Shown: in pieces, positions 12,579-41,329 of the stretch | Position numbering within the stretch: the first letter of the stretch is position 1 | How the letters are laid out: the number at the start of each line of letters is the position of its first letter | Source of the DNA: a virus | DNA length: 47,523 nucleotides | Reading direction: 5' to 3' (one strand) | Virus record (IMG/VR): IMGVR_UViG_3300036827_000033 | Coordinates: 1-47,523 of that record | Translations under genes and position numbers: made by a program | Notes under the pieces: generated by a model | The model's database searches: none | Seen by the model: only the letters and a program-made list of their open reading frames with translations | Told to the model about the DNA's origin: nothing

Positions 12579-12943
12579 GTCTTGCTCGTCTGCTTCGTGT
12601 GGATGCGGTAGGTCTGTCGGTAGGGATCAGAGAACCGCCATGCTGGTTCGGTCCCAAAATCCATCACCGTGTAGATGACGCTCCCCTCAGTAATCGTGTC
12701 GCCGATGGTCGGCTCCATCGTCACGCCGTCTACAATCAGGTCAGCAGTAGCGACCATGTAGTCGCGGGATTCCAGCGTGACGACCACGCCGTTCCCATCA
12801 TCCACATTGAAGGTTGTTCGCCCGATAACGGCTGAAACGCATCTCAGTTGCCATCCGTTGCCCGCGTACGTCACGCTCTGCGCAGCGAACGCTTTCATCT
12901 GCTGGCCGAGCCAAGCCGAACCGTCTTTTAGTAGGTCAATCAT
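12575..12943 (-). CDS. head-tail joining protein-like, 122 aa
   Basis: A beta-rich protein (F-N-V-D-D-G-N-G-V-V-V-T-L-E-S-R-D-Y, then G-D-T-I-T-E-G) whose size and place match small head-tail connector or stopper proteins. Its start overlaps the end of the methyltransferase-glycosyltransferase gene by eight bases. Assignment is by position and fold type only. Confidence 0.5.
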   Translation of the reverse strand: MIDLLKDGSAWLGQQMKAFAAQSVTYAGNGWQLRCVSAVIGRTTFNVDDGNGVVVTLESRDYMVATADLIVDGVTMEPTIGDTITEGSVIYTVMDFGTEPAWRFSDPYRQTYRIHTKQTSKT

Positions 12944-14318
12944 TGCGTTCTGGTGTGGTCTCGGCCGGCGCGTTCTTGTCCCACTTTGCCCGCGTATCGT
13001 CGTCGCCGTTCATGTACGTTCCCCATCCACGCCAGTTGGGGAATTGCGCGTCGCCGCGGTGGGAAAGGGGGATTTTTCGCGTGATGAACGTCCTGGCCCC
13101 GAGCGCGTGAAGTTGGCGTGAGAAATACCAGTCCTCCGACTCGCGCAGGTTCATCCACTGATGATCGGGTCCGCGGGTTACGCCAGTTGGGAAATCAAAG
13201 AAGCATTTCAGCCGTCCGCGCTCGTCAGTCTCAAAAAACAACGGCTTGCGCAGATCGCATACCCAACAACCGGTGTTGTGCAATAGAACCTTGTCGGGAT
13301 GCGGCGTATCTTCGATCCCGAACGTCTCGGGAAGCTCCATGATTTCCCACATGGTGAAGCGGCGGAACGCGCCCCAGGGATTATCCTTGTCGCCTAATCC
13401 GCAACTCGTCAGCCCGCGAATGTCCTTCAGTGGGATCGCGGTCGAGACCATGTGCGCATCAAGCCGTTCAAGTTCCCCGATCAGCACATCCAACCAACCC
13501 GGCGACGGCTCAACGTCCGAATGCAGCATCGCGAAATGGGTGATTTCTCCACCTTCGTAGGCGTTCAATGCCTGCGCCCAAAGCGCGTTGAAATCGTCCC
13601 AGCCGTTCGAGTTGTTTCTCGCCGTCACTTCATGCGCGCCGAGCGACGATTGCGAAATTCCGCTGACTGCGCCCCACGAAAATCCCTTGCCCGGCGCTGC
13701 AAGCATGACCTTTCTGCGCTCAACGACGCATCGCTCTGCAATCATCGCAGAATCGACCCGTCGGTGGACGCGCCAGCGCGACGGATCGCGCATGATCTGT
13801 TCATCGAACGCGCGTACGACATCCAAGTCGGATTCATGGCAGTCATGCACCATGAGCATCCCGCCGAGCGCCAGTTTTGGGAAGTAAAGCCGGAAATCCC
13901 GCGAGACGGTCAAATAATCATGCCCACCATCTACGAATAAGACGGCGCAGCCGGGAATTTCATCAACCGCGTCCTGGCTTGCTTTGGGAATGATCTTGAC
14001 GAGCCCGTTCACGCCAACGCGATCTAGGTTCGCGCGCACCAGTTCCGGCGTGCTGCTTTTCCATCCCGGTTGCAGCCCCGATGCCGATGGCCGGTCTGCG
14101 GGCGGGACGCCTTCAAAACTGTCGATGGCGTAAACCGGGTGGCCCGCGCCCGCCATGCTGCCCAGCGCTAGCGCCGCCGTGGATCGGCCTTGCCACGAAC
14201 CGATTTCGACAATCGGCCCGGTCGCTTCTTTCGCGAGGTCGTACAACGCCCCCGCCTCACGCTCGGTTAGCCATCCATCAATCGACGTAGCCGCTTTGAT
14301 CGCTTCATCACGATCCAT
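12936..14318 (-). CDS. fused SAM methyltransferase and glycosyltransferase
   Basis: Predicted 460 residues in two domains. Residues of about 15-200 form a class I SAM-dependent methyltransferase: I-V-E-I-G-S-W-Q-G-R-S (36-46) is the SAM loop, with V-Y-A-I-D-S (62-67), F-V-D-G-G-H (128-133) and G-G-M-L-M-V-H-D (152-159) as in Methyltransf_24/CmcI-type enzymes. Residues of about 205-440 look like a GT-A glycosyltransferase, with H-S-D-V-E-P (266-271) as a DxD-like metal site and W-x-x-x-L-I-x-E-L after it. It lies inside the head-tail module, where a sugar-modifying enzyme could act on capsid or tail proteins, or on host glycans. Substrate unknown. The adjacent upstream spacer holds a terminator hairpin. 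Confidence 0.75.
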   Translation of the reverse strand: MDRDEAIKAATSIDGWLTEREAGALYDLAKEATGPIVEIGSWQGRSTAALALGSMAGAGHPVYAIDSFEGVPPADRPSASGLQPGWKSSTPELVRANLDRVGVNGLVKIIPKASQDAVDEIPGCAVLFVDGGHDYLTVSRDFRLYFPKLALGGMLMVHDCHESDLDVVRAFDEQIMRDPSRWRVHRRVDSAMIAERCVVERRKVMLAAPGKGFSWGAVSGISQSSLGAHEVTARNNSNGWDDFNALWAQALNAYEGGEITHFAMLHSDVEPSPGWLDVLIGELERLDAHMVSTAIPLKDIRGLTSCGLGDKDNPWGAFRRFTMWEIMELPETFGIEDTPHPDKVLLHNTGCWVCDLRKPLFFETDERGRLKCFFDFPTGVTRGPDHQWMNLRESEDWYFSRQLHALGARTFITRKIPLSHRGDAQFPNWRGWGTYMNGDDDTRAKWDKNAPAETTPERND

Positions 14319-27506: not shown

Positions 27507-27956
27507 CTATGCCGTGGGAAATTCAGGCCAAAGCCAAGCGGCGATTCGTCGCCCAAGTCCATCGGCGCTATCCATTCGTTGTTGCAGTTCAGCGAATGAT
27601 TCGAAATTCTGACCGGAAATTCTCCAATAGAATTTCACGGCGTTCGCTGGCGCGTCTTGCCCTTCGTCGATTACGAGCACAAACAGGTTCTTCCAATCGC
27701 TGCGAGTCGATTCGAGTTCTGCGCGGATATGCAAATCTTGGCCGCGTGGGACGCGCTCGCCCTCGCGCTTGTATTCGATGCGGGCCTTCCTTTTTGCACC
27801 CCAATTATCCAGTTCGTGCGTGCTGAAAGAGTGGTCGACATCGCATGGTCCGTTTCTTTCCGGGCAATGCTTGTTGATCCATTGCCCGGATCGAAGCCAT
27901 GACACTTCGCCGGTTCCCCCGCAACATGGGCAAGATGTGCGAAGCGGATCGTTCAC
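27507..27956 (-). CDS. hypothetical protein with N-terminal Cys cluster
   Basis: Predicted 149 residues. The N-terminus C-P-C-C-G-G-T-G-E-V-S-W looks like a DnaJ-type zinc-ribbon repeat; the rest is mixed and helical (W-K-N-L-F-V-L-V-I-D-E-G-Q-D). Its ATG overlaps the methylase stop by four bases. Function unknown. Confidence 0.6.
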   Translation of the reverse strand: MNDPLRTSCPCCGGTGEVSWLRSGQWINKHCPERNGPCDVDHSFSTHELDNWGAKRKARIEYKREGERVPRGQDLHIRAELESTRSDWKNLFVLVIDEGQDAPANAVKFYWRISGQNFESFAELQQRMDSADGLGRRIAAWLWPEFPTA

Positions 27957-28960
27957 CGGATCAACACAAAACCGAACTTCGTGAATGATTCACAAAATGC
28001 CTTCGCGTCTTTCCCGAGATAGATAACCGCCTGCCCCTGAAGCGGTGCGCCCGGTTTGCCGTCCTCGTCCAAAAACTTGACGCGCCCGGATGGAAAACAA
28101 ATCGCGGAGGCGACGTTCGCCAACTTCTGAAACCATTTCGTCTCAGTGGCGTTGTTCACCAAAACGATTGCTTCGGGAACGTCGGCGGGGAAATGCCCGC
28201 AGAGTTTTTCAGTGAAGGCCGTCACCAGATCGGACGTGTAAGGCGGGTTCATCCACACCTTGCCGCGCCAATCTTGCTTCAGGCCGTCGTCGTCAACGGC
28301 GTAGAACGTTTCCGCGCCGACAACTTTTTGAGCAATCTTCGATGTGGCGGGGTCGAGTTCGATCTCACCCAGCACTTCGCGGGCCGCTTCGATATATTCC
28401 TTCGGCGTGTACCATTCGGGAACGCCGGTATTCTTCGAGACGTGCGCCGCAGTTCCCGCCTTCTCTGTCCCGGTGGCGAACCGGATGAAATCGATAACGC
28501 TCACCGGCTCGTCGACTTCCTTGTTGGCCTCGAAATACTCGTCAATCCGTTCCGCGTTCGCGGCTACCTTGCGGTAGTTTGTCAGCGTGTTTTTCGAGAA
28601 GGGCAAAGCTGTCCCATCGCTTGGGATAGCTTTGTTGCCCTTGCCGCCCATCGCCCCGCGCTCTTCGGGCGGCTTCGCTGGCATCGCCTTGCCGATGTAC
28701 GCCGTCAGCTTGAATCGCCCGGCTTGAATCGTGTTGATAGCGTCGCGTGTGGCGTGAAGATCGTTGGCGAGCTTCAATAGCCCATCACCAGCCCGCAGCG
28801 CCTTCAGTGAATCTCCAACGGACGCTTCGTTGGAAACTATCGCGTCCACCTTTTCGAGAAATATCTTCGCGCCCGTCGTAACGTCGCGCGAAACTAATGA
28901 TCCGTTGCCGTTCCGCTTGCTGATTGAGCGCGCGGAGGTGGCAGTCTGCCCGACTGTCAT
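27953..28960 (-). CDS. phage DNA N6-adenine methyltransferase with N-terminal extension
   Basis: Predicted 335 residues. The C-terminal part (about 160-335) is a Dam-type phage methylase: W-Y-T-P-K-E-Y-I, E-L-D-P-A-T-S, and the catalytic M-N-P-P-Y motif (N-P-P-Y, methyl transfer to adenine). The N-terminal half is an extra helical domain. It is downstream of the NusG-like gene and its terminators. The phage methylates its own DNA, probably against host restriction (inference). Confidence 0.85.
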   Translation of the reverse strand: MTVGQTATSARSISKRNGNGSLVSRDVTTGAKIFLEKVDAIVSNEASVGDSLKALRAGDGLLKLANDLHATRDAINTIQAGRFKLTAYIGKAMPAKPPEERGAMGGKGNKAIPSDGTALPFSKNTLTNYRKVAANAERIDEYFEANKEVDEPVSVIDFIRFATGTEKAGTAAHVSKNTGVPEWYTPKEYIEAAREVLGEIELDPATSKIAQKVVGAETFYAVDDDGLKQDWRGKVWMNPPYTSDLVTAFTEKLCGHFPADVPEAIVLVNNATETKWFQKLANVASAICFPSGRVKFLDEDGKPGAPLQGQAVIYLGKDAKAFCESFTKFGFVLIR

Positions 28961-30943: not shown

Positions 30944-31954
30944 ATGGCAAGCAAGAAGCAACATCACCTGTCCAACTCAGAAGTCATCCGAGAAATCCCA
31001 ATCGCTTGCTCGGACGAAACCGCCGCTGTCGAGTTCTTTGAGCACAAGCGCTGGGGCGGTACGCCCTGCTGCGTCCACTGCGCCAGCGTGAACGTCTACA
31101 AGATGGTCGATGCCAAGACCGGCGAGCGCAACAGGCGTTTCCTCTGGCGTTGCCGCGAGAAAGAATGCGGTAAGCAATATACGGTTCGGATCGGGACCGT
31201 CTATGAAGAAACGCGCCTGCCGCTACGCCACTGGGCTTATGCGTTCTGGCGCGCGTCCACGTCCAAGAAGGGCGTGAGCGCATTGGAAATCAAGCGCCAC
31301 TGCCAGATTGGATACCGCGCCGCGTTGTTCCTGATGAACCGCATTCGCTTCGCCATGGCCCCAGAGCCAACCGAATCGAACAAGCTCAAAGGCATCGTGG
31401 AGTGCGATGAAGTCTATCTTGGCGGGAAGCCCCGCCACCACACCGGCCCGCACAAGCGCGGGCTCGGCACGCTCAAGACGCCGGTGTTCGTCGCCGTTGA
31501 GCGCGGTGGGCAGATTCGCCGTCGAATCATGCCAAACGTCACGGCTCGTAATGTCAAAGCTGCGATTCGCGAGATGGTTCATACGAGTGCCGAAATCCAC
31601 ACGGATGAAAATCGCGTGTATCAGGGACTCGGAAACGAGTTCGCCGGTCACGCAACCGTCTGCCACAAGACTGGCGAATACGTTCGCGAGGGCGTTCACA
31701 ACAACACCGCCGAATCGAGCAACGCCCTAATCAAACGCGGACTCATGGGCATCTATCACAACGTCAGCAAGCAATATCTCCACCGCTACCTATGGCAGTG
31801 GGATTTCTGCTGGAACAGCCGCGACCTGAACGACGGCGAGCGAACGCTTGTGGCGATCCATGCGGCAGAGGGCAAGCGGTTGATGTATCGTGAGCCAACA
31901 GCCAAGCCGGTTCCGCCGCTTCCGGGCGAGCAGTTGCCACCATTTCCGCTATAA
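30944..31954 (+). CDS. IS1595-family transposase
   Basis: Predicted 336 residues. N-terminal zinc-ribbon region (C-C-V-H-C and later C-R-E-K-E-C-G, about residues 37-80), then the ISXO2-like catalytic domain with V-E-C-D-E-V-Y-L-G-G-K and I-H-T-D-E-N as acidic residues and H-N-N-T-A-E-S-S-N as the third. Length matches the family. It starts at 30944, right after its own -10 box. Confidence 0.9.
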   Translation: MASKKQHHLSNSEVIREIPIACSDETAAVEFFEHKRWGGTPCCVHCASVNVYKMVDAKTGERNRRFLWRCREKECGKQYTVRIGTVYEETRLPLRHWAYAFWRASTSKKGVSALEIKRHCQIGYRAALFLMNRIRFAMAPEPTESNKLKGIVECDEVYLGGKPRHHTGPHKRGLGTLKTPVFVAVERGGQIRRRIMPNVTARNVKAAIREMVHTSAEIHTDENRVYQGLGNEFAGHATVCHKTGEYVREGVHNNTAESSNALIKRGLMGIYHNVSKQYLHRYLWQWDFCWNSRDLNDGERTLVAIHAAEGKRLMYREPTAKPVPPLPGEQLPPFPL

Positions 31955-32000
31955 CTGGCCATTACTTGCATATTGATACGTCGATGGCTTCAATATTCGA

Positions 32001-33452
32001 ATGTCCGAAGGCGGCAATTTCGAACAGTTGCCGCTAGATTTTCCGAAAGCGGCCCCTCCTATGGCGATCACATCCGCAGAGATTTCGAAGGAACAGGCGG
32101 AACGGATTTCGAATACGCCGGAGGGGCAGTTTTCGGACGTGAAGGCTGTCGAGATTGCTCCTGCAAAGCTCACGAAGGCAATCTCCGCGCTGGCGAACTC
32201 CGATGGTGGAGATGTTTACATCGGGATTGATGAAATCGGCCCGGATAAGCGTCGCCAATGGCGCGGATTTGCAGACGAGGAGGCAGCAAACGGCCACATT
32301 CAAATATTCGAAAAGCTATTTCCGCTTGGCACGGACTTCCAGTATGAGTTCTTGGCGACCGACGCATTTCCCGGTTCGGTGCTTCACATCCAAGTTAACA
32401 AAACCCAAGGCATCGTGACCGCCTCAAACGGTATCGCCTATATCCGCAGGGGGGCGTCCAGTTTGCCCGCAGATAACCCCGAAATGCGGAAGCGGCTGGA
32501 ATACGCCAAGGGGGTTGTATCGTTTGAAGTCGAGTTGGTGAATGCTCCGATCAGCACGGTAACTGAATCGAAAACCGTCCAGGTATTCATTCGCGAGGTT
32601 GTTCCGACATCAACTCCGCAACTTTGGCTTCGAAAGCAACTGCTCACCCGCGAAGATCGGCCCACCGTTGGTGCCACTTTGCTTTTTTCCGATGAGCCGC
32701 AATCCACGCTTCCGAAGCATTGCGGCGTAAAGATTTACCGTTACAAGACCAAGGAGCAGACAGGCTTCCGTGAGGCACTAGCGTTTACGCCCAAGACCGT
32801 CGAAGGCTGCCTCTACCAACAGATTAAAGATGCCGTTCGAATCACGCGAGAGACGGCGGAGAGTATCCCAAGGCTCGGCGAACAGTCTCTTGAGCAGATC
32901 ACTTATCCCGCCGAAACACTTCACGAAATCATCACCAATGCAGTGATTCACCGCGATTACAGCATTAAGGACGACGTACACATTCGAGTTTTTGAGAATC
33001 GCATCGAAGTTCAGAGCCCCGGAAAGTTGCCCGCGCACGTTACTGTCGAGAACATTTTGGAAGAACGGTACGCAAGAAATGGCGCGATTGTAAGGATCTT
33101 GAACAAGTTTCCCGATCCGCCGAATCAAGATGTTGGCGAAGGGCTGAACACTGCATTTTCGGCAATGCACAAATTGGGACTCAAAGAGCCGACGATTACG
33201 CAGACGGAAAATGATGTTCTAGTAATCATCAAGCACGAGCCGCTGGCCAGCCCAGAAGAGGCCATCATGGACTACTTGGAGAATAACCAGCAAATCAACA
33301 ACAGCACGGCTCGCGAAATAACGCATGTTCGAGCTGACCATCAGATGAAAACGATATTCAAACGAATGGAGGCAAAGAACATGATCGAACAGATTCCGGG
33401 AACGATTACAAGAAACACGGCCTACCGAAAGAAGTCTCCTAGTAAGGACTAG
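32001..33452 (+). CDS. AlbA_2/Schlafen-like and HATPase_c passenger protein
   Basis: Predicted 483 residues. The N-terminal half (about 35-155) has the AlbA_2 pattern (A-L-A-N-S-D-G-G-D-V-Y-I-G-I-D, G-I-A-Y-I-R-R-G). The middle (about 300-400) is a GHKL ATPase-like stretch (I-I-T-N-A-V-I-H-R-D-Y-S, V-Q-S-P-G-K-L-P, D-V-G-E-G-L-N-T-A-F). The C-terminus is a winged helix (D-Y-L-E-N-N-Q-Q-I-N-N-S-T-A-R-E-I). Such proteins are annotated as transcriptional regulators or helicase-like; some relatives act in defence. Cargo of the element. A second ATG at 32061 is possible. Confidence 0.75.
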   Translation: MSEGGNFEQLPLDFPKAAPPMAITSAEISKEQAERISNTPEGQFSDVKAVEIAPAKLTKAISALANSDGGDVYIGIDEIGPDKRRQWRGFADEEAANGHIQIFEKLFPLGTDFQYEFLATDAFPGSVLHIQVNKTQGIVTASNGIAYIRRGASSLPADNPEMRKRLEYAKGVVSFEVELVNAPISTVTESKTVQVFIREVVPTSTPQLWLRKQLLTREDRPTVGATLLFSDEPQSTLPKHCGVKIYRYKTKEQTGFREALAFTPKTVEGCLYQQIKDAVRITRETAESIPRLGEQSLEQITYPAETLHEIITNAVIHRDYSIKDDVHIRVFENRIEVQSPGKLPAHVTVENILEERYARNGAIVRILNKFPDPPNQDVGEGLNTAFSAMHKLGLKEPTITQTENDVLVIIKHEPLASPEEAIMDYLENNQQINNSTAREITHVRADHQMKTIFKRMEAKNMIEQIPGTITRNTAYRKKSPSKD

Positions 33453-33464
33453 CCATTTAAGTGA

Positions 33465-33549
33465 TGCGGCGCACAGGATTTGAACCCGCACAACACATGG
33501 TGTTAAGAGCTTCCAAAGCCCTCGCGTCTACCAATTCCGCCACCGCCGC
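33465..33549 (-). tRNA. class II tRNA, anticodon UGG, inside the IS element
   Basis: Folded by eye: acceptor GCGGCGG/GCGCCGC (last pair G-G mismatch), three-pair D-stem with G18-G19, anticodon stem AGGGC/GCTCT, loop T-T-T-G-G-A-A (anticodon UGG, Pro CCA), a 16-base variable region with stem AACAC/GTGTT, T-stem and loop T-T-C-A-A-A-T, discriminator A73. No encoded CCA (TCA follows). Long variable arm and A73 are Leu-type features. The anticodon is not a Leu anticodon, so this is an odd tRNA: Leu body, Pro anticodon. Confidence 0.8.
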
Positions 33550-33857: not shown

Positions 33858-34376
33858 CTACGCCGCGTTTTCCGCTCTCAAGATGAAGCAGGCGATATGC
33901 CGCCCGGTCCCCTTGCCTGCGCTTCCGTCCTCGGTCGCGAGCCATTTAACATCGCCGAGATTTCTCACCTCCGAATCGACCGCTTTCAAAAGCATCAGAA
34001 CCCACTTATCAATCGGGTAAACCATCACAATCGTTTTCCCTTTCTGGTGCTCTAGAAGCGCCTTGCGCACCCACGCCGTCATTCCCTTTTTACGTCCCTG
34101 ATGGATGATGGATCCGAACGGCGGATTGACGTAGTTGGAAGAACCCCATTCGCACGTCAGGCCATCGAAACCAGCGGGCAGCGGGAACGGACAGGGATCG
34201 AAAGTGAAGTGAAATTCGGCGTCGAGTTCCGCGTAAAGTTCCTGCGGAGTCAGCCAATAGTGTTTTCCGTCGTCTGCATTTCCGGCGTGAAATTTGTTCT
34301 TCGTCGGGTCTAGAAGTTCGCCGCGCCGATTGCGATTGGCACCGTCCCATAGATATTTCTGGCTAACGTCAATCAT
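33858..34376 (-). CDS. phage DNA N6-adenine methyltransferase (Dam-like), 172 aa
   Basis: H-Y-W-L-T-P-Q-E-L-Y-A-E-L-D, then F-D-P-C-P-F-P-L and N-Y-V-N-P-P-F-G-S-I, the catalytic N-P-P-F of Dam-type phage methylases. Ends V-Y-P-I-D-K-W and a C-terminal strand. Its stop lies one base from the target duplication of the element, so the insertion left the gene intact. Confidence 0.8.
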   Translation of the reverse strand: MIDVSQKYLWDGANRNRRGELLDPTKNKFHAGNADDGKHYWLTPQELYAELDAEFHFTFDPCPFPLPAGFDGLTCEWGSSNYVNPPFGSIIHQGRKKGMTAWVRKALLEHQKGKTIVMVYPIDKWVLMLLKAVDSEVRNLGDVKWLATEDGSAGKGTGRHIACFILRAENAA

Positions 34377-34611: not shown

Positions 34612-35982
34612 TCACTGGAACGGGTCGTAACTAGGGTCGGACGCCACATATGATTCCCGCGTCTCAAGCTCGACAAGCGATTGCGTCTGCCCGTTCCATT
34701 GCACGTAACGCATCCCGCCAGTTCCTTCGCGCACCTTCGAGCCAATGATGCTTGTCATTCCGGTTGCGCGCCAATTCGGATCTTCCCGGTGATGCACGTC
34801 GTCACTGTCTGAGAAGAGAACCACGTCGGCATCGGCGTGATAGGCGCCGCTGTCGCGCAGGTCATCGGGTGAAGGCTTGCGGATCGCCGTGCCGCGTTTC
34901 TTGAGCTGTTTGACGGCGATGACGGGGATATTCAGACGCTTAGCGAGATGCTTCAATGTTCGCGACATGGCGTTGTGCCGCGTCGTCGCGCTGTCGTCAT
35001 TGTCCGAACGGCCCATGTCGATCAGGTCAACGTGGTCTACGATCGCCCATTCCCACGCTTGCTGAACGACACCAACCTCGATCGACGTCACCACCTGAAC
35101 GAGAGTCTGCGCGGTGTCGTGGATATAGAGCTTCTGCCCCGCCAGCGCCGCGATTCCATCCACGAGCTTGTCGGCCTGATTCCCGGTGATTCTTCCCTTG
35201 CGGATGTCTTTATTGTTTACGCCTGTCGTTGACGACAGGATATTGCGCGCGATTTTCTTTCGGCTTTCTTCGAGCGAGACGATCCCGCCGGGGTGTCCGT
35301 GCTTCGCGAAGTGCGCGGCGATTTGCTTGCAGAATGCCGATTTCCCGTGACTAGGCCAGCCCGCGATGATGACGTATTCGCCGCTCGCTAGGCCGCCACC
35401 CGTCCAATCGTTCAGGAAGCTGAACGGGAGCGATATCATCGGCACGCCATCGCCGGTCGCTTCTTCGTACACCTCGTGCAGGGCATCTTCGAGAACGACC
35501 GCGGCGGGAGTGCGGCCCGTAGCGTGCTGCGTGGCGAGTTCGCTGATGGCCCACTGATTGATTTCCGCCGATTCCGCATCCGGTGCCATAGCGCGTTTCA
35601 ATTGCTCGTACGACTGGCGGATAAGCCGTCGCAGCGCAGATTTTTCGGCGACGATTCTCGCGTAGTGGGCACCGTTCGCTGGCGATGGAACGGTCGATAA
35701 AATCACGGCCAGGTATTGAAATCCGCCGATACTTTCCAGCTCGCCAATCCTGACCAATTCCTCACGCAAAATCACCGCGTCGATCGGTTTTTCCAGCGCT
35801 CGCAACCCGGCTATGGCCCGAAAAATGATGATGTGGTCTTCGAGAAAGCAATCGTCTGCGGACGCGATTTGCAGCACGTCGCGCAGGATATCCTTATCGA
35901 GCATCATCGACGCCAGCATGCAGCGTTCGGCGTCGATGTTGCGCGGCGGAAGGCGGTCGAATTGCTCGGCGATGTCGTGCAT
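34612..35982 (-). CDS. DnaB-family replicative helicase
   Basis: Predicted 456 residues. N-terminal domain (about 10-110, I-D-A-E-R-C-M-L-A-S-M) then RecA-like core with Walker A A-G-W-P-S-H-G-K-S (207-215), a sensor-like block (I-V-D-H-V-D-L-I-D-M), and C-terminal Arg-finger region. Typical DnaB order. It unwinds DNA at the phage fork. One base separates its start from the stop of the replication gene at 35983. Confidence 0.85.
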   Translation of the reverse strand: MHDIAEQFDRLPPRNIDAERCMLASMMLDKDILRDVLQIASADDCFLEDHIIIFRAIAGLRALEKPIDAVILREELVRIGELESIGGFQYLAVILSTVPSPANGAHYARIVAEKSALRRLIRQSYEQLKRAMAPDAESAEINQWAISELATQHATGRTPAAVVLEDALHEVYEEATGDGVPMISLPFSFLNDWTGGGLASGEYVIIAGWPSHGKSAFCKQIAAHFAKHGHPGGIVSLEESRKKIARNILSSTTGVNNKDIRKGRITGNQADKLVDGIAALAGQKLYIHDTAQTLVQVVTSIEVGVVQQAWEWAIVDHVDLIDMGRSDNDDSATTRHNAMSRTLKHLAKRLNIPVIAVKQLKKRGTAIRKPSPDDLRDSGAYHADADVVLFSDSDDVHHREDPNWRATGMTSIIGSKVREGTGGMRYVQWNGQTQSLVELETRESYVASDPSYDPFQ

Positions 35983-36765
35983 TTACCCCCAATCCCTTTC
36001 GGGCGTTGGCGCCGTCCCTGCGAAGGGATCAACGAGGTCTTGAGCGTCGGTTTCCCACGGCGTCCGGTTGAGCCAGGTCATCGGGAACGGGATGTACTCG
36101 CCGCCTTCCTTCGTCCAGTCGTGGCAATTTTTGAACCGTTCCAGCGTCGAAACCACCGCGTCGGCGATCGGTTCAAGTTTTTCCCGTTTCCAGTGCGCGA
36201 CGCATTTCGAGCGGCCCTGCTTGCGAAAATGCTTGGGCCAAGCCTTCCAAAACCGAGAAAACCCAGCCGGGAGTACGGCCTCGCCCGGAACGGGCGCAGG
36301 TTTTATGGGTTCGGGTCGGTTGGGTTGGGTTGGGTTGGGTTGGGTTAGCGGGTCGAAAGTCTCACGGATTCCGGCCCGGATTCGGCCCGGATTCGGCCCG
36401 ATGTCGTTTGTTCCCTTCGATGGGAACCGGATATCGGGCTTCGTGTCTGAACGTAAGTCCTTGCGGCAATTGACGATCTCGATGTAATGCCGGCCGTCTG
36501 CTTCATAGATTTCTATGAGCCGGGCGTCTGCTAGTTCATCGATTCTCGTCTGTACCGCCTTCACATTGACCTGTCCCAACGCCATCCGCCTGGTGTAGAG
36601 TTTTCCCAGCACCATCGGAGCGTCACCGTAGTAGTGATTCGCATCGTCGGATTGAGCGATCAGACGGGTAAAGAGGGTTTCGGCACCCTCGCTGACCGCG
36701 TTGATCTTCTCGCTGTCGGGGTATGACTTGAGCAGCGGGTTGTATGGCTCTCGCTTATTCATCAT
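35983..36765 (-). CDS. replication initiator or helicase-loader-like protein
   Basis: Predicted 260 residues. The central part has N-P-T-Q-P-N and P-L-T-Q repeats made by GGGTT tandem repeats; the C-terminal half has F-W-K-A-W-P-K-H-F-R-K-Q-G-R-S-K and W-L-N-R-T-P-W-E, a pattern common in phage initiator or loader proteins located next to DnaB. Lambda O carries its origin iterons inside the gene; similar repeats occur here (36322-36399). Confidence 0.6.
   Translation of the reverse strand: MMNKREPYNPLLKSYPDSEKINAVSEGAETLFTRLIAQSDDANHYYGDAPMVLGKLYTRRMALGQVNVKAVQTRIDELADARLIEIYEADGRHYIEIVNCRKDLRSDTKPDIRFPSKGTNDIGPNPGRIRAGIRETFDPLTQPNPTQPNRPEPIKPAPVPGEAVLPAGFSRFWKAWPKHFRKQGRSKCVAHWKREKLEPIADAVVSTLERFKNCHDWTKEGGEYIPFPMTWLNRTPWETDAQDLVDPFAGTAPTPERDWG
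36322..36399. other. candidate origin: G-tracts and iteron-like repeats
   Basis: Five GGGTT repeats (36322-36346; a G-quadruplex-capable strand) followed by three copies of GGATTC(C)GGCCC at 36366-36377, 36378-36388 and 36389-36399. They lie inside the replication gene, as origin iterons do in lambda O. Alternatively they only encode Pro-rich sequence. Confidence 0.4.
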
Positions 36766-36958
36766 CCCTGACCAACCGCCGACAAGCCTGCGTCCCGCAG
36801 AGACGGGAGGGTGTGAAGCGCCTCGTCAGGGTTGACGGGACGCAGGCTTGCGGACGGTTCATTAAGGCGCTTCACGACAAGTTATTCGCTCGCCGTCATC
36901 GCCCATCCTCATTCGTTCATTTCCTCTGTCCCCGGCCCGCGCCGGTTCCCAAGCCGAT
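36766..36958. other. intergenic region with interlocked inverted repeats
   Basis: Arm pair 1: CAAGCCTGCGTCCCG (36783-36797) with its perfect reverse complement at 36836-36850 (15 bp). Arm pair 2: GTGAAGCGCCT (36813-36823) with AGGCGCTTCAC at 36865-36875 (11 bp). The left arm of pair 2 lies inside pair 1 and its right arm outside, a pseudoknot (H-type) topology. It precedes the replication gene. No ORF found in it. Confidence 0.7.
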
Positions 36959-38214: not shown

Positions 38215-39054
38215 CTATGCGGTTGCGTCTTTCGTGTAACTGGGGCCGTTGATGAGCAGGACTTCGGGGGCGGTCGTGCAGCTTTCGCCCTGCCTTCCGA
38301 GCGCCATCGACTTCGCGCGATATACTTCGCGCTTCGTCCAACCTGGATAAAGTTCTTTCAGGTCGTGGTGCTCGTAGTAACTAACGACAACGCGGGTTTT
38401 AGTGAACCGGCGCATGGCCTTCGCGAGCCGACGATGCGCCAACCAATCGAAATCGTGTTGGTATTCTCCATTCTTTTTCAGATATGGCGGATCCGCGTAA
38501 ACAACCGTTCCTTCCTTGTCTTCGATGCGTTCGCACATTTCAAAAGCGTCCATGCGGAATATCGCGACGTGCCGCAGCCTTCTACGCCATGCGGGGATTG
38601 AGTCAACTGCCGACATCAACCGCTTGCCAGGCGCGCCGCCGTTACTTGTGAATCGGCGACAAAAATTTTGATTCGATTCCTTCGTCCCCGCCGTCCCGTT
38701 ACGACAAATCCATGAATGAAGGAAATACCAGTAGGCCCGGTCAATCCCAACATCGCTTATCGGATCGCTGCACTTTTCCCTCGCCTCCGCGAGATAATCC
38801 TCGTGAAAGAGGACGCGCCTGAGGCGACGATATAGAAGCACGGCGTCCGCGCCTTGGATAACCCTCGCCAGATTTATCAGGTCGCCGTGAAGATCGTTCA
38901 CAGTCTCTTGCTTTACCTGTGGTTTTTGAAGTAGGACCGCCATCGATCCGCAGAAGGGTTCAAAATACACAGAATGCGGCCCGATCTCCCGCACGATCGT
39001 CGGCGCGAGTGTCCTCTTGCCGCCGAACCAGGGGGCGATCGCCGTGATTTTCAT
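38215..39054 (-). CDS. D12-class DNA adenine methylase
   Basis: About 279 residues from ATG 39054 (an earlier ATG at 39072 exists). N-terminal P-W-F-G-G-K-R is the SAM loop of D12-class (Dam, DpnM-type) methylases, F-E-P-F-C-G-S follows, and A-D-P-P-Y-L-K-K is the catalytic motif. These enzymes methylate adenine in a short site such as GATC. Third adenine methylase in the genome. Confidence 0.85.
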   Translation of the reverse strand: MKITAIAPWFGGKRTLAPTIVREIGPHSVYFEPFCGSMAVLLQKPQVKQETVNDLHGDLINLARVIQGADAVLLYRRLRRVLFHEDYLAEAREKCSDPISDVGIDRAYWYFLHSWICRNGTAGTKESNQNFCRRFTSNGGAPGKRLMSAVDSIPAWRRRLRHVAIFRMDAFEMCERIEDKEGTVVYADPPYLKKNGEYQHDFDWLAHRRLAKAMRRFTKTRVVVSYYEHHDLKELYPGWTKREVYRAKSMALGRQGESCTTAPEVLLINGPSYTKDATA

Positions 39055-39068
39055 TTCGGATTCTCCGC

Positions 39069-39608
39069 TCACTTTCCCGCCTCCCCTTCCCCGCCGGCGA
39101 GGGAGATAATTTCGATTACGACGAAAAAATCACCACAGCCGATATGCGGGACAACCACATCGAATTGAAGCGGTGATGTCGGCGCGTCGTCCACGCCGTA
39201 CATCCGTGCCAGCTGGTCCCTGAGATAACAACAGGAGCCGGTCGCGTTATCGCTGTCCAACGGCTTGCCTTTGCTGTATCGCGTGAATCTCACCGTCGCG
39301 GGCAGCGGCGGAAGGTCAAACTTCCTGACGATGGAAGCGAGCGCGCGAGCCTGAAGCTGGGCGCGTTTCCGCTTCACCCAGAACGGCTCGCTCGAATTCT
39401 TCTCCGTCTGCGTGCGAACTGGAATGACGGCGCGGAGATAACCCGGTCGCGTTGTCACGCCCGGCCTGAGCGACAGCATGAGCTTCTTGCGCATCGCGGC
39501 GGCGCCGGTACCGCGCGGACGGTTCCGCTTGGCCGGCGCTGTGGCGGCGGTGTCGGCGCAGGGGAGTTTCACGCCCGCCCTGCGAAGCTCTGTGAGTTTA
39601 ATGCCCAT
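39069..39608 (-). CDS. RusA-like Holliday junction resolvase (tentative)
   Basis: Predicted 179 residues. The block K-P-L-D-S-D-N-A-T, R-D-Q-L-A-R-M-Y-G-V-D-D resembles the D-x-D-N and R-D acidic core of RusA-type resolvases, in the usual position next to replication and methylase genes. Basic N-terminal extension. The match is partial; confidence is moderate. Confidence 0.5.
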   Translation of the reverse strand: MGIKLTELRRAGVKLPCADTAATAPAKRNRPRGTGAAAMRKKLMLSLRPGVTTRPGYLRAVIPVRTQTEKNSSEPFWVKRKRAQLQARALASIVRKFDLPPLPATVRFTRYSKGKPLDSDNATGSCCYLRDQLARMYGVDDAPTSPLQFDVVVPHIGCGDFFVVIEIISLAGGEGEAGK

Positions 39609-39651: not shown

Positions 39652-40641
39652 TCATCCGCGTTCGGGGTGGTCGCTCGCCACTCCCTGTTTTGGAAATTCC
39701 CTGACGCGCAGCTCTTCTGGCCATTCGGACGGTTCGCCGCCCTTGCAGTCTTTAATCATCCCGCAGCGCAGTTCAGGGTCGGTCGTTACGGGGCGCTTAC
39801 CGAGTTGTTTGATGAAGCACGGAACGCCTGCCGCCGCGCACTGCTTGCGAATTGAGTTAATCCAACGTACGTCACATTCACGCGATCCACGCCCACTCTC
39901 GCCGCCGACGATGCACCAGTTAATGACGGGCGCGCCATTCCGATTGCACGATGGATCGGCGCGGCGGATCGGGCGTAACGACGCGATGCCGTCGAACGAA
40001 AGATCAAGATCAATCGCCCCCAGCAACGGCTCGCATGAAAGAAAACGCACCGCCGCCAGGCATCGCAGCAAATGCGGAATGCGCTCGTCCGCCGCTTTCT
40101 GATTTTCCACGCTCGTGCCCAGCCAGACGTTCGGCAGCGGCCAGTCGCGTGTTGTGATATGACCATCAACCAGCCATCGACCTACATTGCCTTGAAGATC
40201 TGGATCAGTAGGTCGTTCGCGTTTTAGATATTCCGCCATCCTCTCCGGTCGCTTGGTCAGTACCTGAAACGTGTGTTGCGGACAAAGCGCCATCACCGCG
40301 AAAACCTTGTCGATGAAGTCGAACGCCACGCCCTCGTGGAACAAATCAGACATGCTGTTGACGAATACGCGACGCGGCTTCTTCCATTTCAGCGGATCAG
40401 CCAGCGCCTCGGGAACGAGTTCAACGCGCCCGTTCCACCGCCCGTCTTCATTGACGACTTTCAGATAGTGCGCCTTGCGACCGGGACTCTTGCCGTCTTT
40501 CTCGTCGGCCAAAGCCATGCCGCGAAGGCGATTGCTCATCGTTTCGGCATAGCAATGCGCGCAGCCGGGGCTAACCATCGTGCAGCCGACGACCGGATTC
40601 CATGTCGTGTCCGTCCATTGAATTGCGCTGTTGCTGCTCAT
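39652..40641 (-). CDS. phage Gp37/Gp68 family protein (DUF5131-like)
   Basis: 329 residues from ATG at 40641. The longer frame is a shadow. Starts S-S-N-S-A-I-Q-W-T-D-T-T-W-N-P-V-V-G-C with Cys20, Cys27 and Cys30 (C-x6-C-x2-C, S-P-G-C-A-H-C-Y-A), then F-V-N-S-M-S-D-L-F and Q-V-L-T-K-R-P-E-R. The family looks radical-SAM-related; role in phages is not known to me. Confidence 0.8.
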   Translation of the reverse strand: MSSNSAIQWTDTTWNPVVGCTMVSPGCAHCYAETMSNRLRGMALADEKDGKSPGRKAHYLKVVNEDGRWNGRVELVPEALADPLKWKKPRRVFVNSMSDLFHEGVAFDFIDKVFAVMALCPQHTFQVLTKRPERMAEYLKRERPTDPDLQGNVGRWLVDGHITTRDWPLPNVWLGTSVENQKAADERIPHLLRCLAAVRFLSCEPLLGAIDLDLSFDGIASLRPIRRADPSCNRNGAPVINWCIVGGESGRGSRECDVRWINSIRKQCAAAGVPCFIKQLGKRPVTTDPELRCGMIKDCKGGEPSEWPEELRVREFPKQGVASDHPERG

Positions 40642-40660
40642 CGCTGGCCTTTCGGGGGAA

Positions 40661-41329
40661 TCACTTAGGATTGTGGTGATCGTCCAACAACGTCTTCGCC
40701 GCCTGCAACATCTCCCACTTTTCCGGGTCTCCATTCTTGTCAGGATGCAATTTCGTCGTCGCGTCCCGGTAAGCGTCGCGCCACACAATCGCCGAATCGA
40801 TGATGTTGGATGCGAGACTCGCGCACTCGCCGTTGGTCGCTCCGACGCCTGCCACGAACCGCGCCGCCGCCTCCAGCGTCAGAACGCCCGTGTGCGTAGG
40901 GCTGGGAAGGTATTTGCCGAAGCCAAGGTACTGCTGGGAATTCTGCGTCACGCCGTAGCGGTCGATGCGACGTAAATCTTCCAGCGCGATCGCCACCGCG
41001 CGAATGTTCGCGTGATAGGGCGTGAACCGCGCCGCAGGGAAATAGAGCGGCACCATGTCCATCTGCCCGCGCGGGTTCCTCACCGGCTTGCGGATGCGGA
41101 CGATGATCCCCGGATGCTCCGGCGTGGCGTCGGCGTAGGGAATCCCGTCGCGGTTGAACGCGCCGTCCTTCAGCGCCAACTCTACGACCGCATCAATCCC
41201 GCGGATCATGCGCACCTCGCGGTCGAGAAGGTTGACGGTCGAGCGGTAGTCGGCCTTGAAGGGGGCGCGAAGTCGCTCGATTTTTATGTCGTCCGGCCAC
41301 TTCTTCATTGGCCGATAAAGGATGCTCAT
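40661..41329 (-). CDS. hypothetical protein with J-domain-like C-terminus
   Basis: Predicted 222 residues. Residues of about 183-218 read W-R-D-A-Y-R-D-A-T-T-K-L-H-P-D-K-N-G-D then a helix A-A-K-T-L-L-D-D: an H-P-D motif in the DnaJ spacing. The N-terminal 180 residues are a separate unknown domain (P-G-I-I-V-R-I-R-K-P). Could recruit the host DnaK to the replication complex (inference). Confidence 0.65.
   Translation of the reverse strand: MSILYRPMKKWPDDIKIERLRAPFKADYRSTVNLLDREVRMIRGIDAVVELALKDGAFNRDGIPYADATPEHPGIIVRIRKPVRNPRGQMDMVPLYFPAARFTPYHANIRAVAIALEDLRRIDRYGVTQNSQQYLGFGKYLPSPTHTGVLTLEAAARFVAGVGATNGECASLASNIIDSAIVWRDAYRDATTKLHPDKNGDPEKWEMLQAAKTLLDDHHNPK

Follow-up and report, generated by a model that had tools for sequence, protein, structure and literature searches.

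Interlocked helices in the leader of a phage replication operon: a probable RNA switch whose layout recurs ahead of other phage replication genes

In the window (the whole stretch of viral DNA analysed here, 47,523 nt), a set of interlocked inverted repeats lies within the 193-nt gap that precedes the replication initiator gene. When the minus strand is read, this gap is the 5′ leader of the gene. We consider it likely that this element gives the replication operon a structured 5′ leader RNA, in which helix strands are interlocked in the order A, B, A′, B′ (with C and C′ in addition) and the RNA switches from A to B while it is being transcribed. It is probably an undescribed RNA switch that sets phage replication genes on or off.

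The original prediction reported a 15-bp and an 11-bp perfect inverted repeat interlocked at 36783–36875, and both were confirmed from the sequence. The exact arms are CAAGCCTGCGTCCCG (36783–36797 with 36836–36850, 15 bp) and GTGAAGCGCCT (36813–36823 with 36865–36875, 11 bp). A longer repeat of 24 nt, 88% complementary (36774–36797 with 36836–36859), has the 15-bp arm as its core, and helix B can be extended by wobbles up to the base preceding the rep start codon. Helix C, in which 10 of 11 positions are paired (36825–36835 with 36762–36772), was not part of the original prediction; it spans the start codon of the initiator gene together with its ribosome-binding site. On the minus strand the order is A, B, C, A′, B′, C′, and each of the three helices crosses both others (Table 1). 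The ACCC in the 5′ strand of helix C is the loop of hairpin P2 in the A state.

Table 1. Features of the leader and of the replication operon in the window.
Feature	Positions	Strand	Remarks
Helix A, 5′ strand	36865–36875	−	GTGAAGCGCCT; where the leader RNA is expected to begin
Helix A, 3′ strand	36813–36823	−	AGGCGCTTCAC
Helix B, 5′ strand	36836–36859	−	24 nt; core 36836–36850 perfectly paired
Helix B, 3′ strand	36774–36797	−	24 nt; can extend to 36766 across the ribosome-binding site
Helix C, 5′ strand	36825–36835	−	TCAACCCTGAC
Helix C, 3′ strand	36762–36772	−	GTCAGGGATGA; contains the AGGG ribosome-binding site (36766–36769) and the start codon (36763–36765)
Hairpin P2	36824–36837	−	CGTCA-ACCC-TGACG; adjoins the helix A 3′ strand
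Possible leader ORF	36762–36875	−	GTG to TGA, 37 aa; stop overlaps the rep start (ATGA)
Replication initiation protein gene	35983–36765	−	260 aa; PHROG 270, 9474, 1408
DnaB-like replicative helicase gene	34612–35982	−	next in the operon

Several other features were observed in the window. Five-base repeats (GGGTTGGGTTGGGTT...) lie within the rep gene at 36306–36346 (+) and encode PNPTQPNPTQPN; they could be an origin or a G-quadruplex within the initiator gene. The same PTQPNPTQPN linker is present in the Rep proteins of L004 and L006, which are only distantly related. A tRNA-Pro (tgg) gene (33465–33549, −) adjoins the replication genes. An IS1595-type transposase and an AlbA_2/RecG-C-like gene (30944–33452, +) stand on the strand opposite to most genes, and this segment is likely an insertion. 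There are four DNA methyltransferase-like genes (12936–14318, 27953–28960, 33858–34376 and 38215–39072), and a DUF5131/PHROG 2045 protein (39652–40788, −) gave a strong match with no function assigned.

We explored the leaders of related replication genes, which were retrieved through alignment of the Rep N-terminal domain. The closest Rep proteins have about 46–53% identity in this domain. Three loci with close Reps (L118, L120 and L123), as well as L139, have a leader with a promoter and a helix, P1, that begins at about +1. A 7-bp hairpin P2 abuts the 3′ strand of P1 in all four, and its loop pairs with a stretch ending at the rep ribosome-binding site. L056 has a different Rep N-domain, yet its leader has the same P1, P2 and crossing helix. 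The crossing helix stops exactly at the ribosome-binding site in all five leaders. Helix A of the window and its P2 hairpin, with the ACCC loop facing AGGG, match this plan. In the collections searched, no DNA closely related to the window element was found, and it is a putative member of the class by its layout, its position and the P1–P2 fit.

MAFFT set the leader helices one column off and gapped the leader of phage JC1, and the helices were therefore aligned by hand. Our covariation analysis of L118, L139, L120, L123 and L056 showed that all 20 pairs were kept in all five leaders (100/100 cells paired), 15 of them with two-sided changes. None of 500 shuffles reached any of the five measures. 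When the partners were slid by 1–3 columns, at most 49% of cells were paired (slid controls, at most 4). Taken by itself, the energy test is weak for L118, L120, L139 and L123, where the covariation carries the case.

Interlocked helices in A–B–A′–B′ order, most of them longer, were found in L140, L107, L043, L073, L117 and L106. L073 has three mutually crossing helices, as in the window. In L107 a perfect sigma-70 promoter sets helix A at +1, and a terminator precedes the promoter. With L118, L120, L123, L139 and L056, there are 11 loci at which the same layout heads a replication gene or operon. The energy of the crossing helices fell below z = −3 in 7/71 leaders of Rep relatives compared with 4/272 control stretches from the same contigs. 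Three of these seven leaders (L095, L066 and L099) were left out as unconvincing, since one hairpin or weak partners appear to drive most of their signal. Helices and loops vary freely in sequence among the members, and the layout is retained.

The plan is also found in cultured Burkholderia phages. In JC1, BcepMigl, BcepIL02, DC1 and CSP3 it precedes the first gene of the replication cluster, and helix B is 16–19 bp long. For the aligned outer 13 bp of helix B in Lessievirus, 64/65 cells were paired and 10 of the 13 columns were compensatory. The first gene of the JC1 cluster is described in the section of the JC1 paper covering it as conserved across Bcep22-like phages, and the terminator-like U-run of the leader is not among the Rho-independent terminators in the list given there (PMC9144972).

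The arms had been expected to be absent from related phages, or unaccompanied by compensatory change, if the original prediction was wrong. Many relatives keep them with compensatory changes, and some are without the element. No such leader was found directly upstream of rep in the relatives L119, L121/122, L134 and L137. Other cultured phages, too, were without the element in the stretches tested: Pseudomonas phages AV001, psageB2, IME307 and Itty13 (weak), Acinetobacter MD-2021a, Moorella MCACPph1, Marinomonas P12026, Pasteurella Pmp14, Mannheimia 587AP2 and Sulfitobacter pCB2047-A.

Searches by sequence gave little. DNA homologs of the element were not found in phages by blastn, and the exact arm pattern had no match in the viral contigs searched. 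No Rfam (release 15) covariance model scored above its gathering cut-off; at gathering and permissive thresholds there were only tRNA matches and chance matches to microRNAs or sRNAs. Of the covariation checks originally suggested, Rfam gave no match, and the comparison of related leaders showed compensatory change. Neither a helicase query nor a genome-contig query with a single Rep retrieved relatives, the N-terminal domain of L123 had no match in plasmids, and phylum searches from two MAG matches added one weak locus.

We counted the first non-pair beside the crossing helices on the sense strand of the gene and found G·U 23 times, A·C 5 times and other combinations 20 times, in a count that was strand-symmetric, used exact Watson–Crick seeds only and included a few internal positions twice. 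The excess of G·U on the rep-sense strand points to RNA, not DNA, and the active molecule would be RNA of that strand. A sigma-70 promoter sets helix A at about +1 in 9/16 leaders. Upstream of helix A in the window there is no convincing sigma-70 promoter (6/12 matches; 128/300 shuffles equally good). Eight leaders (JC1, BcepMigl, BcepIL02, DC1, CSP3, L140, L073 and L117) have 6–8 T in the 10 nt after B′. The window, with 2 T in the 10 nt after B′, has no such U-run, and neither do L043, L118, L120, L123, L139 and L056; in most leaders without one, B′ overlaps or adjoins the ribosome-binding site.

Folding was predicted for the growing chain, with energies that ignore pseudoknots. The window RNA formed helix A and the small hairpin by 64 nt, and then helix B once B′ had been made; the GGG of the ribosome-binding site was about 1–2% unpaired in the final ensemble. 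The same succession of A and B was found in JC1 and L107, and in L140 the A state is the predicted optimum at full length. We propose that helix A/A′ would form first in the growing transcript and delay B, and that the later and stronger B/B′ would replace it, as both cannot be complete together. In the B state of the window the rep ribosome-binding site would be paired and translation would stop, which gives an off state. In relatives with a U-run after B′, the same rearrangement may end transcription instead. In either case the synthesis of the initiator would be limited or timed. The balance may be tipped by translation of the leader ORF, by a protein such as the initiator or by leader RNA acting in trans; at present the best candidate for the trigger is the ORF that connects helix A with the start of rep. 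A single long pseudoknot, as originally suggested, with both stems complete at once is less likely than conformers that replace one another, because a 24-bp stem would have only short connecting loops and the folding switches from A to B.

The alternatives can be weighed against this A-to-B switch. The view that these are chance inverted repeats in a GC-rich phage appears very improbable. Once G·U pairs and mismatches are admitted, comparable energies occur elsewhere in the 47.5 kb and the pair is not exceptional on energy alone; such a whole-window scan is too noisy, and its top match (816–983) is a GGC/GTA-rich low-complexity repeat with 13 overlapping copies in an 81-nt register. Because of this, the case rests on the exact arms, the position and the relatives. 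The 15-bp/11-bp pair is the sole interlocked exact pair in the window with arms of at least 10 bp, and its sum of 26 bp exceeds the maximum of 24 bp that was reached when the whole window was shuffled 300 times with dinucleotides preserved. Within the 200-nt leader, the summed energy of two crossing helices is −70; shuffles average −34, and none of 200 does as well. The pair also lies in the leader of rep, and the layout recurs with covariation. A DNA element, such as a hairpin at a replication origin or sites bound by a dimeric protein, is very improbable as well. It would be in keeping with the adjoining replication genes and with a strong single-strand DNA fold (z −4.6). However, the G·U excess is on one strand, there are compensatory changes, and the element goes together with transcription starts and with U-runs or ribosome-binding sites. 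The DNA origin proposed in the original prediction is unsupported, as covariation and wobbles follow the RNA sense strand. Its proposal of an RNA that controls the replication gene has the support of the position over the start of that gene, strand-specific G·U pairs, compensatory changes and the layout shared with relatives.

Two other RNA readings must be considered. It is improbable that processing or termination turns the leader into a small RNA acting in trans on newly made leader transcripts, for copy control or superinfection immunity as in C4/P4. The terminator-like B′ of eight leaders would free an RNA of about 100 nt, and the halves of the leader are complementary block by block; however, the window has no U-run after B′, and Rfam gives no C4 or other match. 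A switch coupled to a leader peptide, as in repY–repZ, has a somewhat better claim, although we still judge it unlikely. Here a ribosome on the leader ORF would open the structure, and a pseudoknot beside the rep ribosome-binding site would turn initiator translation on instead of off. An ORF that reaches from helix A as far as the start of rep is found in 7/12 leaders including the window, where about 0.9 would be expected from shuffles; in the window its stop overlaps the rep start, and in L118, L120, L123, L139 and L056 the crossing helix ends at the ribosome-binding site. However, the ORF is missing in 5/12 leaders, its criterion was set after examples had been seen, its chance for the window leader is about 0.07, and the peptides show no similarity between members. 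Eight leaders end terminator-like instead, and a consensus scan, which is limited, found no antisense promoter in the window or over the loops of L107, L073 and L140.

Among known systems, repY is the ColIb-P9 leader ORF that is coupled to repZ. The translation of repZ depends on a pseudoknot upstream of its ribosome-binding site (PMC8383071). The ColIb-P9 system (IncI-alpha, with IncB and IncL/M relatives) resembles the leaders studied here in that an initiator-gene leader has interlocking pairing by the ribosome-binding site, and a coupled leader ORF may exist here as well. A crossing helix lies at or directly upstream of the initiator ribosome-binding site in the window (C/C′ and the extended B) and in the L118-type relatives. 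However, in ColIb-P9 the pseudoknot activates and an antisense RNA controls, the helices of the window and its relatives are much longer, some phage members end in a terminator-like U-run, and initiators and hosts differ. The initiators are not homologous, the window Rep being a phage PHROG 270/1408 initiator. In pT181-type rep mRNA attenuators, two mutually exclusive leader conformers, one of them terminator-like, precede the initiator gene (PMC8383071). Such conformers ahead of an initiator gene are a likeness, whereas no antisense RNA was found here and the helices cross instead of sharing a strand. An intrinsic-terminator attenuator was rejected for the window, which has no U-run after B′. 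By analogy, the element would work most like the ColIb-P9 repY–repZ leader or the rep-mRNA attenuators, and it is not a member of either: the initiators differ, no antisense promoter was found and Rfam has no match.

In SAM-II type pseudoknot riboswitches, which hide the ribosome-binding site, the crossing helix likewise includes or abuts this site. However, the present leaders have no conserved ligand-pocket sequence, their helices change freely and Rfam gives no match; a ligand-binding riboswitch was rejected in the absence of a conserved binding core across members. The C4 and phage P4 immunity leader RNAs are phage leaders with internal complementarity and early termination. The leaders studied here share the internal complementarity, and differ in that there is no Rfam C4 match and the window leader has no terminator.

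These leaders may, we tentatively suggest, form a widespread and undescribed class of phage leader RNA, an interlocked one-way folding timer at the head of replication operons, with interchangeable outputs (a terminator or a block of the ribosome-binding site) and no conserved sequence. Sequence searches would miss such a class, since the letters are not conserved and only the layout is kept. The Burkholderia phages provide cultured material for testing. The leaders would be a clean natural example of crossing helices that serve as a folding switch with two different outputs. If this is true, RNA folding topology decides in many phages how much replication initiator is made, or when.
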